This document shows positions 48,491 to 53,544 of a DNA stretch of 64,000 nucleotides, in pieces. Location: contig NZ_CP121017.1 of the NCBI RefSeq assembly GCF_041468085.1, positions 4,127,501 to 4,191,500 of the forward strand, in the 5' to 3' direction. A model generated the notes under the pieces. That model was not told the origin of the DNA. It did no database searches and saw only the letters and a program-made list of their open reading frames with translations. Each line of letters starts with the position of its first letter. The first letter of the stretch is position 1. A program made the translations under genes and the position numbers. Source of the DNA: Tistrella mobilis. Lineage in GTDB: Bacteria > Pseudomonadota > Alphaproteobacteria > Tistrellales > Tistrellaceae.

Positions 48491-48772
48491 CTATCTGCTC
48501 TGCCCGGCCTCAGCCGGCGTGCGGGTGACGAGCGCCAAAGCGTGAACCCGCTCCGCCAATTCCTCGGCCAGAACCTCGTAGACCCGGCGCTGACGCATCA
48601 CGCGGGTCAGACCATCAAAGGCCACGGTCACGATCTCGACCCGGAAATGTGTTTCGCCGCCGGGCTGATGGCCCGCATGGCCGGCATGGCGGTCACTCTC
48701 ATCGGTGATCACCAGCCGCTCAGGCGCAAAGGCGGCCGTCAGCTTGGTCTCGATCCGCTCCCTGATGGTCAT
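48491..48772 (-). CDS. bolA: BolA family protein
   Basis: A 93-residue BolA-like protein from ATG at 48772 (MTIRERIETKLTAAFAPERL). The BolA fold is visible: LVITDESDRHAGHAGHQPGG with the conserved His pair, ETHFRVEIVTVAFDGLTRV and RRVYEVLAEEL. BolA proteins work with monothiol glutaredoxins in iron-sulfur and stress pathways. It is the usual gene beside the J-domain/cobS/cobT cluster in alphaproteobacteria, though here an HTH gene intervenes. Confidence 0.92.
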   Translation of the reverse strand: MTIRERIETKLTAAFAPERLVITDESDRHAGHAGHQPGGETHFRVEIVTVAFDGLTRVMRQRRVYEVLAEELAERVHALALVTRTPAEAGQSR

Positions 48773-49180
48773 GTCGGCACAGGCCTCCGCATTCTCAAGG
48801 TCATATCCCGATGATACTGCAATTCCCGTCGCCGCGCGCGGCCCAGGCGATGTATCAAGCCTGATGCGCGCACCGGGGCCGGGTCGCCTCACGTATAAGT
48901 ATCATACCGGGACAATCTGTCTCATTTTGGCACAAGCGTTTCACGATCAAACAGGGACAGGAACACAGCCGCACAGCGAATGCCTCGGCGAAGCACAGGA
49001 TGGGAAACCCTTTTCTCCCGAAGTGGACATCCGGGGAACCCGATCCACCGGCAAACGTTAAGCGCACATTAACCGCAGCCCTGATGATCCTGGCGCGCGC
49101 GCCGGAAAATCGGTCCCGAACGCGCGTTTCCAGTCGCACATCATACCACTGGAACGCAAGCAGGTCTTGCGCAGGGGTTT

Positions 49181-49197
49181 TTGGCACACCCTTTGCT
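49181..49197 (+). promoter_or_regulatory. Sigma-54 promoter of the HTH regulator
   Basis: TTGGCACACCCTTTGCTT matches the consensus YTGGCACR-N4-TTGCW at every conserved position: the GG (49183-49184) and GC (49195-49196) are exactly ten bases apart, as sigma-54 requires. Transcription would begin near 49208, about 130 bases before the ATG at 49340. No IHF site or enhancer-binding-protein site can be named from sequence alone. Confidence 0.75.
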
Positions 49198-49324
49198 TGT
49201 AAACCGGCGGAGCAGGGGCGACCAGCCGGGAACACGGAACCGCACCCAGGCCGACACTACGGACGAATTGCGGACGAGGCGGAACGCTCCCCACGTCAAT
49301 CTCTCAACCAACACCCTGATCAAA

Positions 49325-49336
49325 GAGGGATCCCTC
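49325..49336 (+). promoter_or_regulatory. Palindrome over the ribosome-binding site of the HTH gene
   Basis: GAGGGATCCCTC, a perfect 12-base palindrome (49325-49336), includes the only good Shine-Dalgarno-like sequence and ends three bases before the ATG at 49340. In RNA it could pair with itself; in DNA it could bind the dimeric HTH product. Confidence 0.55.
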
Positions 49337-49339
49337 CCC

Positions 49340-49708
49340 ATGAAGACCACCAAGAGCCGGGCCCAGGAAGTCGATCGTTACGTCGGTGCGCGGATCCGCG
49401 AGCGCCGCATCATGCTGGGCCTGACCCAGCAGCAGCTGGCTGACATGATCGGCGTGACCTACCAGCAGGCCCACAAGTACGAGCGCGGCATCAACCGCAT
49501 CGCCGCCGGTCGTCTCTACGACATCGCGCAGGCCCTGGGCGTCACCATCTCCTACTTCTTCGAGGGTCTGGAGCAGGGCGGTCAGGTTGAGATGACCCCG
49601 CGTCAGCGCATGTGCCTGGAACTGGCCCGCAACTTCTCGATGATCCAGAACGGCAAGCATCAGGAAGCGCTGAGCACTCTTGCCCGCAGCCTGGCCGACG
49701 CCTCCTGA
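49340..49708 (+). CDS. Small Cro/CI-type HTH transcriptional regulator
   Basis: A 122-residue protein whose residues about 14-75 form a Xre/SinR-like HTH: YVGARIRERRIMLGLTQQQL, then VTYQQAHKYERGINRI. A conserved C-terminal extension ends in LARSLADAS. This compact regulator is common in alphaproteobacteria, but I cannot name its targets. Its gene follows a sigma-54 promoter, unusual for this family, and has a palindrome over its RBS. It sits inside the bolA-dnaJ-cobS-cobT neighbourhood. Confidence 0.9.
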   Translation: MKTTKSRAQEVDRYVGARIRERRIMLGLTQQQLADMIGVTYQQAHKYERGINRIAAGRLYDIAQALGVTISYFFEGLEQGGQVEMTPRQRMCLELARNFSMIQNGKHQEALSTLARSLADAS

Positions 49709-49755
49709 TTCCACGCACGACCGACACGGGCGCCGCGGCGCCCGGTGCAGATCCG

Positions 49756-49799
49756 GAACGCCCGCGTGACCGCCCGAACGGCCGGTCGCGCGGGCGTTC
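49756..49799 (+). terminator. Terminator-like hairpin after the HTH gene
   Basis: An 11-base perfect stem (49756-49766 with 49789-49799) extends inward with one wobble pair to about 17 pairs. It lies 48 bases after the HTH gene stop and before the J-domain gene. Its core ACGCCCGCG matches the secA hairpin. There is no T-run. Confidence 0.6.
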
Positions 49800-49892
49800 G
49801 GCGTCTGGATGGATCGCTTGCGCATTTTTCCCGACGGCCGGCATTGTCCGGGCACTTGCCGCACCGCACCCCGTGACGCATATTTTGCCGTC

Positions 49893-50504
49893 ATGGCGAT
49901 CGACCTCTTCAGCATCCGGCGCACCGCCGCCTACGCTCCCGACGGAACCCGGCTCTGCGATTGCGAGGGCTGCGGAGAGGAAGGTGCGTTCCGCGCGCCC
50001 AAATCACGTGACCGGCTGCGGGACTACTACTTTTTTTGCCTGGAGCATGTCCGCGCCTACAACAAGGGCTGGGACTACTTCAAGGGATTGAGTTCGGCCG
50101 AGATCGACCGTCACCTGCATGACGACATGACCTGGCACCGTCCGTCCTGGCCCTTCGCCAGCGCCGATCGCGACCAGGCCGACGAGATTGCCCGTGCGGC
50201 GGCCCAGATGTTCCGTGAAGGCCGGACCAGTGACCCCTTCGGCATGTTCGGTGCTGCCGGTCGCGCGGCCGAGCGCGTGCGCGCCGCCGCCGAAGCGCGC
50301 TTCACGCCCGATGAGCGCCAGGCCTTCAAGACACTGGGCATCGACCCGACCCGCGATCTGCCGCAGATCAAGGACCACTACAAGAAACTCGCCAAACGGC
50401 TGCACCCCGACGTCACCGGCGGCGACGCCGCGTCGGAGGAACGCATGAAATCGGTGAACCAGGCCTATTCCTTTTTGATGCACCGCGCGTCAGACTGGAC
50501 CTGA
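49893..50504 (+). CDS. J-domain protein with N-terminal Cys/His cluster
   Basis: A 203-residue protein with the J domain at its C-terminus (about 140-203; [20 protein letters not shown], then [13 protein letters not shown] with the essential HPD). The N-terminus carries DCEGCG and, after a spacer, [11 protein letters not shown]: a CxxC...CxxH pattern that suggests a treble-clef zinc site. It would recruit DnaK to a client; placement in front of cobS-cobT suggests the client could be the cobaltochelatase, which I infer only from position. Confidence 0.88.
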
Positions 50505-50668: not shown

Positions 50669-51658
50669 ATGGCTTCCGAGACCCTGGCCGCCCCGACCCC
50701 GAACACGCCGGATATCAAGGTGTCTGTGCGACAGGTCTTCGGCATCGACAGCGACATGGAGGTGCCGGCATTCAGCGACCGCAGCGAGCATGTGCCCGAT
50801 CTGGATCAGACCTACCGCTTCCAGCCCGACGTCACCCTCGCCATTCTTGCGGGTTTCGCCTTTAACCGCCGCGTGATGATCCAGGGCTATCACGGCACCG
50901 GCAAGTCGACCCATATCGAGCAGGTCGCGGCCCGGCTGAACTGGCCCTGTGTGCGCGTCAACCTCGACAGCCATATCAGCCGCATCGACCTGATCGGCAA
51001 GGACGCCATCGTGCTGCGCGACGGCAAGCAGGTGACCGAATACAAGGAGGGCATCCTGCCCTTCTGCCTGCAGCGTCCGACCGCGCTGGTCTTCGACGAA
51101 TATGATGCCGGTCGCGCCGATGTGATGTTCGTGATCCAGCGCATTCTGGAAAATGAGGGCAAGCTGACCCTGGTTGAACAGAACAAGGTCATCCGCCCGC
51201 ATCCCTATTTCCGGATCTTCGCCACCGCCAATACGGTGGGCCTGGGTGATACGACCGGCCTCTATCACGGCACCCAGCAGATCAACCAGGGCCAGATGGA
51301 CCGCTGGAACGTGGTGGTCACGCTGAACTATCTGGCGCCCGACGAAGAGAGCGCGATCGTGCTCTCCAAGCTGCCGGAATTCGACAATGCCGACGGCCAC
51401 AAGACCGTGCGGTCGATGGTCGCCCTGGCCGACCTTACCCGCAGCGCCTTCATCAATGGCGACATCTCGACCGTCATGTCGCCGCGCACCGTGCTGACCT
51501 GGGCCGAGAACTACCGGATCTTCAAGGATCTGCAGCTCGCCTTCCGCTTCACCTTCCTCAACAAGTGTGACGAAGTGGAGCGCCCGCTGATCGCCGAGTA
51601 CTACCAGCGCTGCTTCGGCACCGAGCTGCACGTCCCCGGCATCCGCCACATGGGTTGA
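50669..51658 (+). CDS. cobS: Aerobic cobaltochelatase subunit CobS
   Basis: AAA+ ATPase subunit of the oxygen-dependent cobalt chelatase CobNST, which inserts Co2+ into hydrogenobyrinic acid a,c-diamide. The 329-residue protein carries Walker [10 protein letters not shown] near 75, Walker [11 protein letters not shown] near 143 and the family-specific [16 protein letters not shown]. It starts 164 bases after the J-domain gene; cobT follows five bases later. cobN is not in the window. Confidence 0.96.
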
Positions 51659-51663
51659 GGGAT

Positions 51664-53544
51664 ATGCGCAAGCGCAACGATCCGCAATCCGTCGAGCAGT
51701 TCAAACGTGCCCTGACCAGCACCGTGAAGGCGATGGCCGGCACGCCTCAGCTCGAAGTCGCCTTCACCTTCGAACCGCCGCGGCTGCGTGGCGATCGGGT
51801 GAACCTGCGCGCGCCGATGCGTAACCTGCCGGAACAGCAGGTCGCCCGCATCCGCGGCGAGGCCGACCAGATCGCGCTGCGCGTGCGCCATCACGATGCC
51901 CGCATCCACATGGCCCGCCAACCCCAGGGCGAGCTGTCACGCCGGCTCTATGAAAGCTGTGAACAGCTGCGCATCGAGGCCCTGGGCGGGCGCAACATGA
52001 CGGGCGTGCGCGGCAATCTGGCCCGTTTGCAGGAAGACCAGCTTCGCGAGCAGCCGCAGCGCCTCGCCGTCGACGGCAGCCCGGAATCGCTTTGCGAAGC
52101 GGCTCTGCTGCTGCTGCGCGAGCGCCTGACCGGGGTCCCGACGCCGGAGATCGCCCAGGAACTGGTCGAACACTGGCGCCCGGTGATCGAGAGCAAGGCC
52201 GGCGACGACCTGGCCCGCCTGCCCGAGATCATGGCCGACCAGAAGCGCTTTTCCGAAGGGGTACGCGACCTGCTGTCGGACCTCGACATCGAGGCCGAGA
52301 CCGAAGGCGAGCTCGATGAGGATCGCGAGCCCGACGAGGCCGATGACCAGGCCGAAGCGGAAGCTCAGGAACAGCCCGACGGCGAAGGCGGTGAGCAGTC
52401 GCAGGACGGCGACGACAGTGGCCAGTCGAGCGAGGGGGCACCCGAGACCGGCGACGGCGAGGCCGATGCCGACATGGCGGCCAGCGACCCCGACTCCGAA
52501 AGCGGCGCCGGTGGCGAGGACAGCTCGTCCCGGGTCCGCCCCTGGATGCCGCCCGGATCCAACGAGAACGAAACGGCAGCGGACGTCTATCATCCCTACA
52601 CCACCGAATTCGACGAGGTGGTGGAGGCAAGCGAGCTTGCGACCGAAGACGAGTTGAACCGGCTGCGCGGTCTGCTCGACCAGCAGATGACCAATCTGCA
52701 TGGCGTGATCACCAAGCTCGCCAACCGCCTGCAACGCCGCCTGCTGGCCAAGCAGTCGCGCGGCTGGGAGTTCGATCTCGACGAAGGCCTGCTCGACAGC
52801 TCCAAGCTTGCCCGCGTCGTTGTCCAGCCGCTCTACAGCCAGACCTACAAGCGCGAGCGCGACACCGACTTCCGCGACACGGTGGTCACGCTGCTGATCG
52901 ACAATTCGGGCTCGATGCGCGGCCGGCCGATCTCGGTGGCGGCGATGAGCGCCGACATTCTTGCCCGCACGCTGGAGCGCTGCGGCGTGAAGGTCGAAAT
53001 CCTGGGCTTCACCACCCGGGACTGGAAGGGCGGCCAGTCGCGCAAGAAGTGGCTCGACGGCGGCAAGCCGCAGACGCCGGGCCGGCTCAACGACCTGCGC
53101 CACATCGTCTACAAATCGGCCGACTGGCCGTGGCGGCGGGCGCGGAAGAATCTGGGCCTGATGCTGCGCGAAGGCCTGCTCAAGGAGAATATCGACGGCG
53201 AAGCGATCCTCTGGGCCCATAACCGCCTGCTGGCCCGGCCCGAGAACCGCCGGATCCTGATGGTGATCTCCGATGGTGCGCCGGTCGACGACAGCACCCT
53301 GTCGGTCAACAGTTCGAACTATCTGGACCGCCATCTGCGCCAGGTGATCGAGTGGATCGAGAGCCGTTCGCCGGTCGATCTGGTGGCGATCGGCATCGGC
53401 CACGACGTCACCCGCTACTACAAGCGCGCGGTAACCATCGTCGATGCCGAACAGCTGGGCGGCACGGTGATGAACCAGCTGGCCGAGCTCTTCGACGAAG
53501 ACCAGGGCGGCCGCAGCAGCCGCCCCACCCGCCTCAGACACTGA
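51664..53544 (+). CDS. cobT: Aerobic cobaltochelatase subunit CobT
   Basis: Chelatase partner of CobS, 626 residues from ATG at 51664. Conserved N-terminal half, then a long acidic linker (about 210-300; many Glu/Asp/Gln, e.g. [16 protein letters not shown]) and a C-terminal von Willebrand A domain with the MIDAS motif [13 protein letters not shown] near 415 and [15 protein letters not shown] at 51655 is an alternative start three codons upstream. Followed by a symmetrical hairpin terminator. Confidence 0.96.

Follow-up and report, generated by a model that had tools for sequence, protein, structure and literature searches.

According to the literature, the 120- to 140-aa XRE proteins of Alphaproteobacteria include the PhrR/PraR/CdxA regulators and XrpA. 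Regulators of the PhrR/PraR/CdxA type control biofilm, adhesins, R-bodies, and stress survival, and the inputs that they receive are said to be species variable and poorly defined. Inducers of phrR in S. medicae are acid, metals, ethanol, and H2O2 (PMC10688885), and the phrR gene of R. etli is (p)ppGpp dependent and needed for survival of H2O2 and heat (PMC3188799). The consensus site of PraR is CAAC-N5-GTTG (PMC5527310). In Cereibacter sphaeroides, ctrA and chpT are repressed by XrpA, an XRE protein of 120 aa that depends on RpoN3 and on an activator, AprX (PMC11999139).

A gene of this size class lies in the window, i.e., the whole 64-kb stretch of Tistrella mobilis DNA that was analyzed. 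A 567-bp gap separates it from a divergent bolA-like gene, and the locus comprises the following features:

48491..48772, minus strand: bolA-like gene, divergent (PF01722, 1.3e-28)
48927..48943, plus strand: second, imperfect sigma-54-like site, TTGGCACA-AGCG-TTTCA, with one mismatch (TC for GC)
49035..49059, plus strand: EcfG-type (general stress) promoter-like motif, GGAAC-N16-CGTT
49058..49072, plus strand: perfect CtrA box, TTAA-N7-TTAA, the sole one in 64 kb, invariant in three species
49155..49171, plus strand: perfect dyad, CGCAAG-N5-CTTGCG, with 9 bp between it and the sigma-54 element
49181..49197, plus strand: sigma-54 (-24/-12) promoter element TTGGCACACCCTTTGCT, that is, TTGGCACA-CCCT-TTGCT, exact consensus, in three Tistrella genomes
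49208..49339, plus strand: predicted 5′ leader of the XRE gene, from sigma-54 promoter geometry
49340..49708, plus strand: gene of an XRE/Cro-C1 HTH regulator, 122 aa (PF01381, E=3.9e-16; PF12844; PF13560)
49893..50504, plus strand: DnaJ-domain protein gene, downstream (PF00226)
50669..53544, plus strand: cobS and cobT (CobT by PF06213/PF11775; cobS by position and sequence)

The XRE gene starts with the ATG at 49340 and encodes a protein with HTH_3 at residues 19 to 73 and a conserved C-terminal segment. This protein is 100% identical to its counterpart in Tistrella mobilis KA081020-065, 70 to 76% identical to many Rhodospirillales proteins, and ~41 to 56% identical to many unnamed XRE proteins of rhizobial plasmids. 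A sequence-only reading of this DNA had called it Xre/SinR-like; SinR-like is loose, and the 120- to 140-aa alphaproteobacterial XRE proteins are the better comparison. Two strong GC-rich hairpins (49727 to 49800; fold z, -3.65) separate the gene from dnaJ, so it is probably monocistronic; a search of the same gap for a T-run terminator found none. With bolA divergent and strong hairpins before dnaJ, the relay to neighboring genes (bolA, the dnaJ-like gene, and cobST) that the same reading had envisaged found no support. Close to the bolA start, a GTATGATAC-type repeat occupies positions 48885 to 48915, and the similar GGGTATGATACTT was found 5′ of the XRE homologue in L031.

Comparison of TTGGCACACCCTTTGCT with YTGGCACR-N4-TTGCW revealed zero mismatches at 49181 to 49197 of the plus strand, and the spacing from GG (49183 to 49184) to GC (49195 to 49196) is ten bases, as required, which confirms the exact match first noticed in the letters. 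The 64-kb window contains this single exact match, compared with none in 100 of 100 dinucleotide shuffles. Located 143 bp 5′ of the XRE gene, the element also has the right place and orientation for a promoter ahead of a small HTH regulator, as had been claimed, the downstream product being a 122-aa Cro/C1 HTH protein. Extrapolation from the -12 position would set the transcription start at ~49208 and the leader length at ~132 nt. The leader has an ordinary fold (z, -0.01) and gave no match in an Rfam search. A 12-bp palindrome, GAGGGATCCCTC (49325..49336, plus strand), covers the likely Shine-Dalgarno sequence of the XRE gene and is invariant in three species; translational control at this palindrome is possible. 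Scanning of the upstream region for a sigma-70-like promoter of the XRE gene detected none, and such a promoter was dropped as a candidate. TTGCTTG, as at the conserved -12, which might be the remnant of a housekeeping -35, occurs in 10 of 93 upstream regions of homologues, but in a different setting. The imperfect site at 48927 to 48943 lies 254 bp 5′ of the main site in the same orientation, within a 61-bp block (48922 to 48982) identical in three species, and is unlikely to be active because the GC of its -12 is lost.

Genome-wide, the Tistrella genome (6.3 Mb) contains five exact matches to the sigma-54 pattern, compared with one match to the reversed pattern, and two further Tistrella genomes contain four each, compared with none for this control. 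Allowing one mismatch raised the genome-wide count to 39, barely above the 34 of the control, so only perfect matches are informative and one-mismatch sites were ignored. All three Tistrella genomes retain four of the five exact sites, that of the XRE gene included. The others include sites before flagellar fliK and before the gene of an ABC transporter substrate-binding protein (both kept in the three genomes), as well as one before an alcohol dehydrogenase (adh) gene, whose divergent neighbor encodes an AcoR-like sigma-54 activator. Judged by gene context, these remaining exact sites look like genuine sigma-54 promoters. The genome carries rpoN (PF04552, E=4.4e-67). The last of the five exact sites, G000:C4:3898419-3898435 (1501 to 1517 in L004, L122, and L123), is conserved in the three genomes and lies ~650 bp 5′ of a gene for a mipZ-like ATPase. 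The intervening stretch shows no clear conserved ORF and no Rfam family above cut-off; the DNA behind this site is a candidate for a sigma-54-driven noncoding RNA.

The 13 constrained sigma-54 positions at the XRE gene are unchanged in the three Tistrella genomes, and variation is confined to the N4 spacer (CCCT, CCGC, or CCGT). This is the pattern expected of a promoter, though not significant alone, since 89% of the bolA/XRE gap is invariant across these genomes (Fisher p=0.38 for the element). A 52-bp block at 49206 to 49257 is likewise identical across the three Tistrella species. The absence of the motif in close relatives had been named as a possible refutation; it is present in all three Tistrella genomes. 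Outside this genus, it is absent from ~100 XRE homologues, some of which have the same bolA/dnaJ neighbors, with one exception. This distribution points to a lineage-specific input. The exception is a distant, 91% complete MAG of a different family (G021), in which TGGCACACTTCTTGCT provides a perfect core 73 bp 5′ of an XRE gene whose product is 64 to 67% identical to the Tistrella protein. No perfect core arose in 50 shuffles for each of 110 upstream regions, and rpoN was found in the MAG and in the Tistrella genomes. This second case lends good but not clean support, because the site overlaps a sigma-70-like TTGATT-N18-GATAAT.

Sigma-54 is not the sole plausible input to the XRE gene: farther upstream are a putative EcfG-like site and a CtrA box. 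These two motifs overlap, and their P values (0.001 for the CtrA box in shuffles of the bolA/XRE gap and 0.006 for the EcfG-type motif in shuffles) are somewhat optimistic, several site types having been scanned. The CGCAAG-N5-CTTGCG dyad is present in one copy per genome, and its arms are invariant in the three Tistrella species while its center varies. Because 16% of shuffled regions contain a chance dyad with 6-bp arms and N5 spacing, this one is no more than a candidate for an operator through which the XRE protein may act on its own gene. The PraR consensus CAAC-N5-GTTG was found 5′ of none of 80 XRE homologues, and the promoter of the XRE gene itself has CAAG-N5-CTTG instead.

The best explanation of these findings, and one that we hold with reasonable confidence, is that positions 49181 to 49197 are a real, probably functional sigma-54 promoter of a small XRE-type repressor gene. 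Unlikely, though worth serious thought, is the view of a mainly general-stress gene that starts from the EcfG-type promoter at 49035 to 49059, the sigma-54-like site being minor or inactive. GGAAC-N16-CGTT occurs 5′ of 5 of 93 dereplicated XRE homologues, compared with 0.22 expected (a level reached in 0 of 400 shuffles), and this enrichment is specific to spacer 16 and to the coding strand (e.g., L014, L019, L022, L045, and L010, across Alphaproteobacteria). It agrees with the reported stress-inducible phrR genes (PMC3188799, PMC10688885), and by analogy the stress induction in S. medicae and the R. etli data would favor an EcfG-type start. Within Tistrella, however, the motif is intact in two of three genomes and reads GGGAC in the third, a search of the Tistrella genome for the anti-sigma factor NepR detected none, and the leader would be ~270 nt long. 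We consider it more doubtful still that the match arose by chance in a conserved intergenic region and that the real promoter is CtrA dependent or housekeeping. By our own estimate, base composition would yield about one exact match in each genome (reversed control, 1, 0, and 0), the adjacent DNA is equally conserved, and nearly all homologues outside Tistrella lack the motif. What speaks against chance is the excess of exact matches over the control (five to one), the retention of four of them in all three genomes, mostly 5′ of genes, and the further case in the MAG.

The least probable of the alternatives is, in our view, a real sigma-54 promoter that answers to the nitrogen activator NtrC or NifA. 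Tistrella does have NtrC/NtrX-type activators, at the adjacent loci L158 and L169 (assigned by position and sequence), but scanning of the whole 567-bp gap revealed neither an NtrC-like (GCAC-N7/9-GTGC) nor a NifA-like (TGT-N10-ACA) site. Furthermore, the MAG has the promoter and, within the limits of its 91% completeness, no GAFTGA-bearing NtrC or NifA. It encodes two proteins of the sigma-54-activator type: FlbD, between fliN and flhA, which carries GSFTGA, and NtrX, beside NtrY, which is devoid of the sigma-54-contact motif. FlbD is the sole GAFTGA/GSFTGA activator found there and, if the MAG is representative, would be the activator of its XRE promoter. The Tistrella genome encodes 12 enhancer-binding activators, namely FlbD and eleven others; its FlbD, 61% identical to that of the MAG and encoded next to motA, is the most likely of these candidates to act on the XRE promoter. 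From the letters alone, an activator switch relaying nitrogen or surface status had been suggested; its nitrogen half is unsupported, whereas surface status signaled via FlbD is possible and is the version that we prefer. The hexamer CGGCAA at 49049 was considered as a FlbD site and set aside as uninformative (0.7 occurrences per 380 bp); no FlbD site is demonstrable in the gap, CGGCAA being too common.

In the preferred reading, RNA polymerase with RpoN would occupy the -24/-12 element at 49181 to 49197, and transcription from ~49208 would be triggered by an enhancer-binding activator, for which FlbD is the likeliest candidate. The 567-bp control region probably also receives CtrA and a stress sigma factor, which would make sigma-54 one of several inputs, and the XRE repressor may limit its own synthesis via the CGCAAG-N5-CTTGCG dyad just 5′ of the -24. 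A wider and quite speculative proposal, to which we give little weight, is that FlbD and sigma-54 drive the XRE repressor not just in Tistrella but in one or more unrelated lineages of Alphaproteobacteria, and that the CtrA and EcfG-type inputs (in Tistrella) make it a node joining flagellar assembly, the CtrA cell cycle pathway, and general stress, with a possible feedback of the repressor on ctrA, as for XrpA. For regulators of this kind, one genus now offers concrete candidate inputs (sigma-54, CtrA, and EcfG-like), and the enrichment of GGAAC-N16-CGTT 5′ of homologues is a simple explanation on offer for the reported stress induction. If the preferred reading is true, sigma-54 control of small XRE repressors extends past the Rhodobacterales.

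Among known systems, Caulobacter has class III-IV flagellar promoters served by FlbD and sigma-54, which likewise have a perfect -24/-12 element; in Tistrella, flbD adjoins motA and a perfect sigma-54 site precedes fliK. Unlike those promoters, however, the Tistrella element is predicted to drive a regulator gene outside the flagellar cluster and has no demonstrated FlbD site. The XRE protein resembles PhrR/PraR/CdxA (PMC4149787, PMC5527310, PMC10688885, PMC3188799) in size, HTH type, and wide alphaproteobacterial spread, and its gene in having a candidate operator with N5 spacing and a stress-type promoter motif. Its identities reach the 70s only with Rhodospirillales homologues. The half-site in the Tistrella dyad is CAAG, whereas that of PraR is CAAC, the N5 spacing being common to both, and in the PhrR/PraR/CdxA literature we found no sigma-54 control of these regulators, unlike what is proposed for the Tistrella gene. 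The closest precedent is XrpA, likewise an XRE protein of ~120 aa with an N-terminal Cro/C1 HTH, from a probably monocistronic gene with a consensus sigma-54 promoter in an alphaproteobacterium. The neighbors differ (bolA/dnaJ/cobST in Tistrella; hisN and a divergent quinone oxidoreductase at xrpA), the -12 element of xrpA stands just 46 bp before the start codon compared with the predicted ~132-nt leader in Tistrella, and the CtrA box and dyad upstream set the Tistrella gene apart. The likely activator in Tistrella is FlbD, which is absent from those Rhodobacteraceae (PMC6180460). Because the neighbors differ, we do not file the Tistrella gene as XrpA; alike in outline, it is likely a second example of the recently described type of circuit that XrpA represents.
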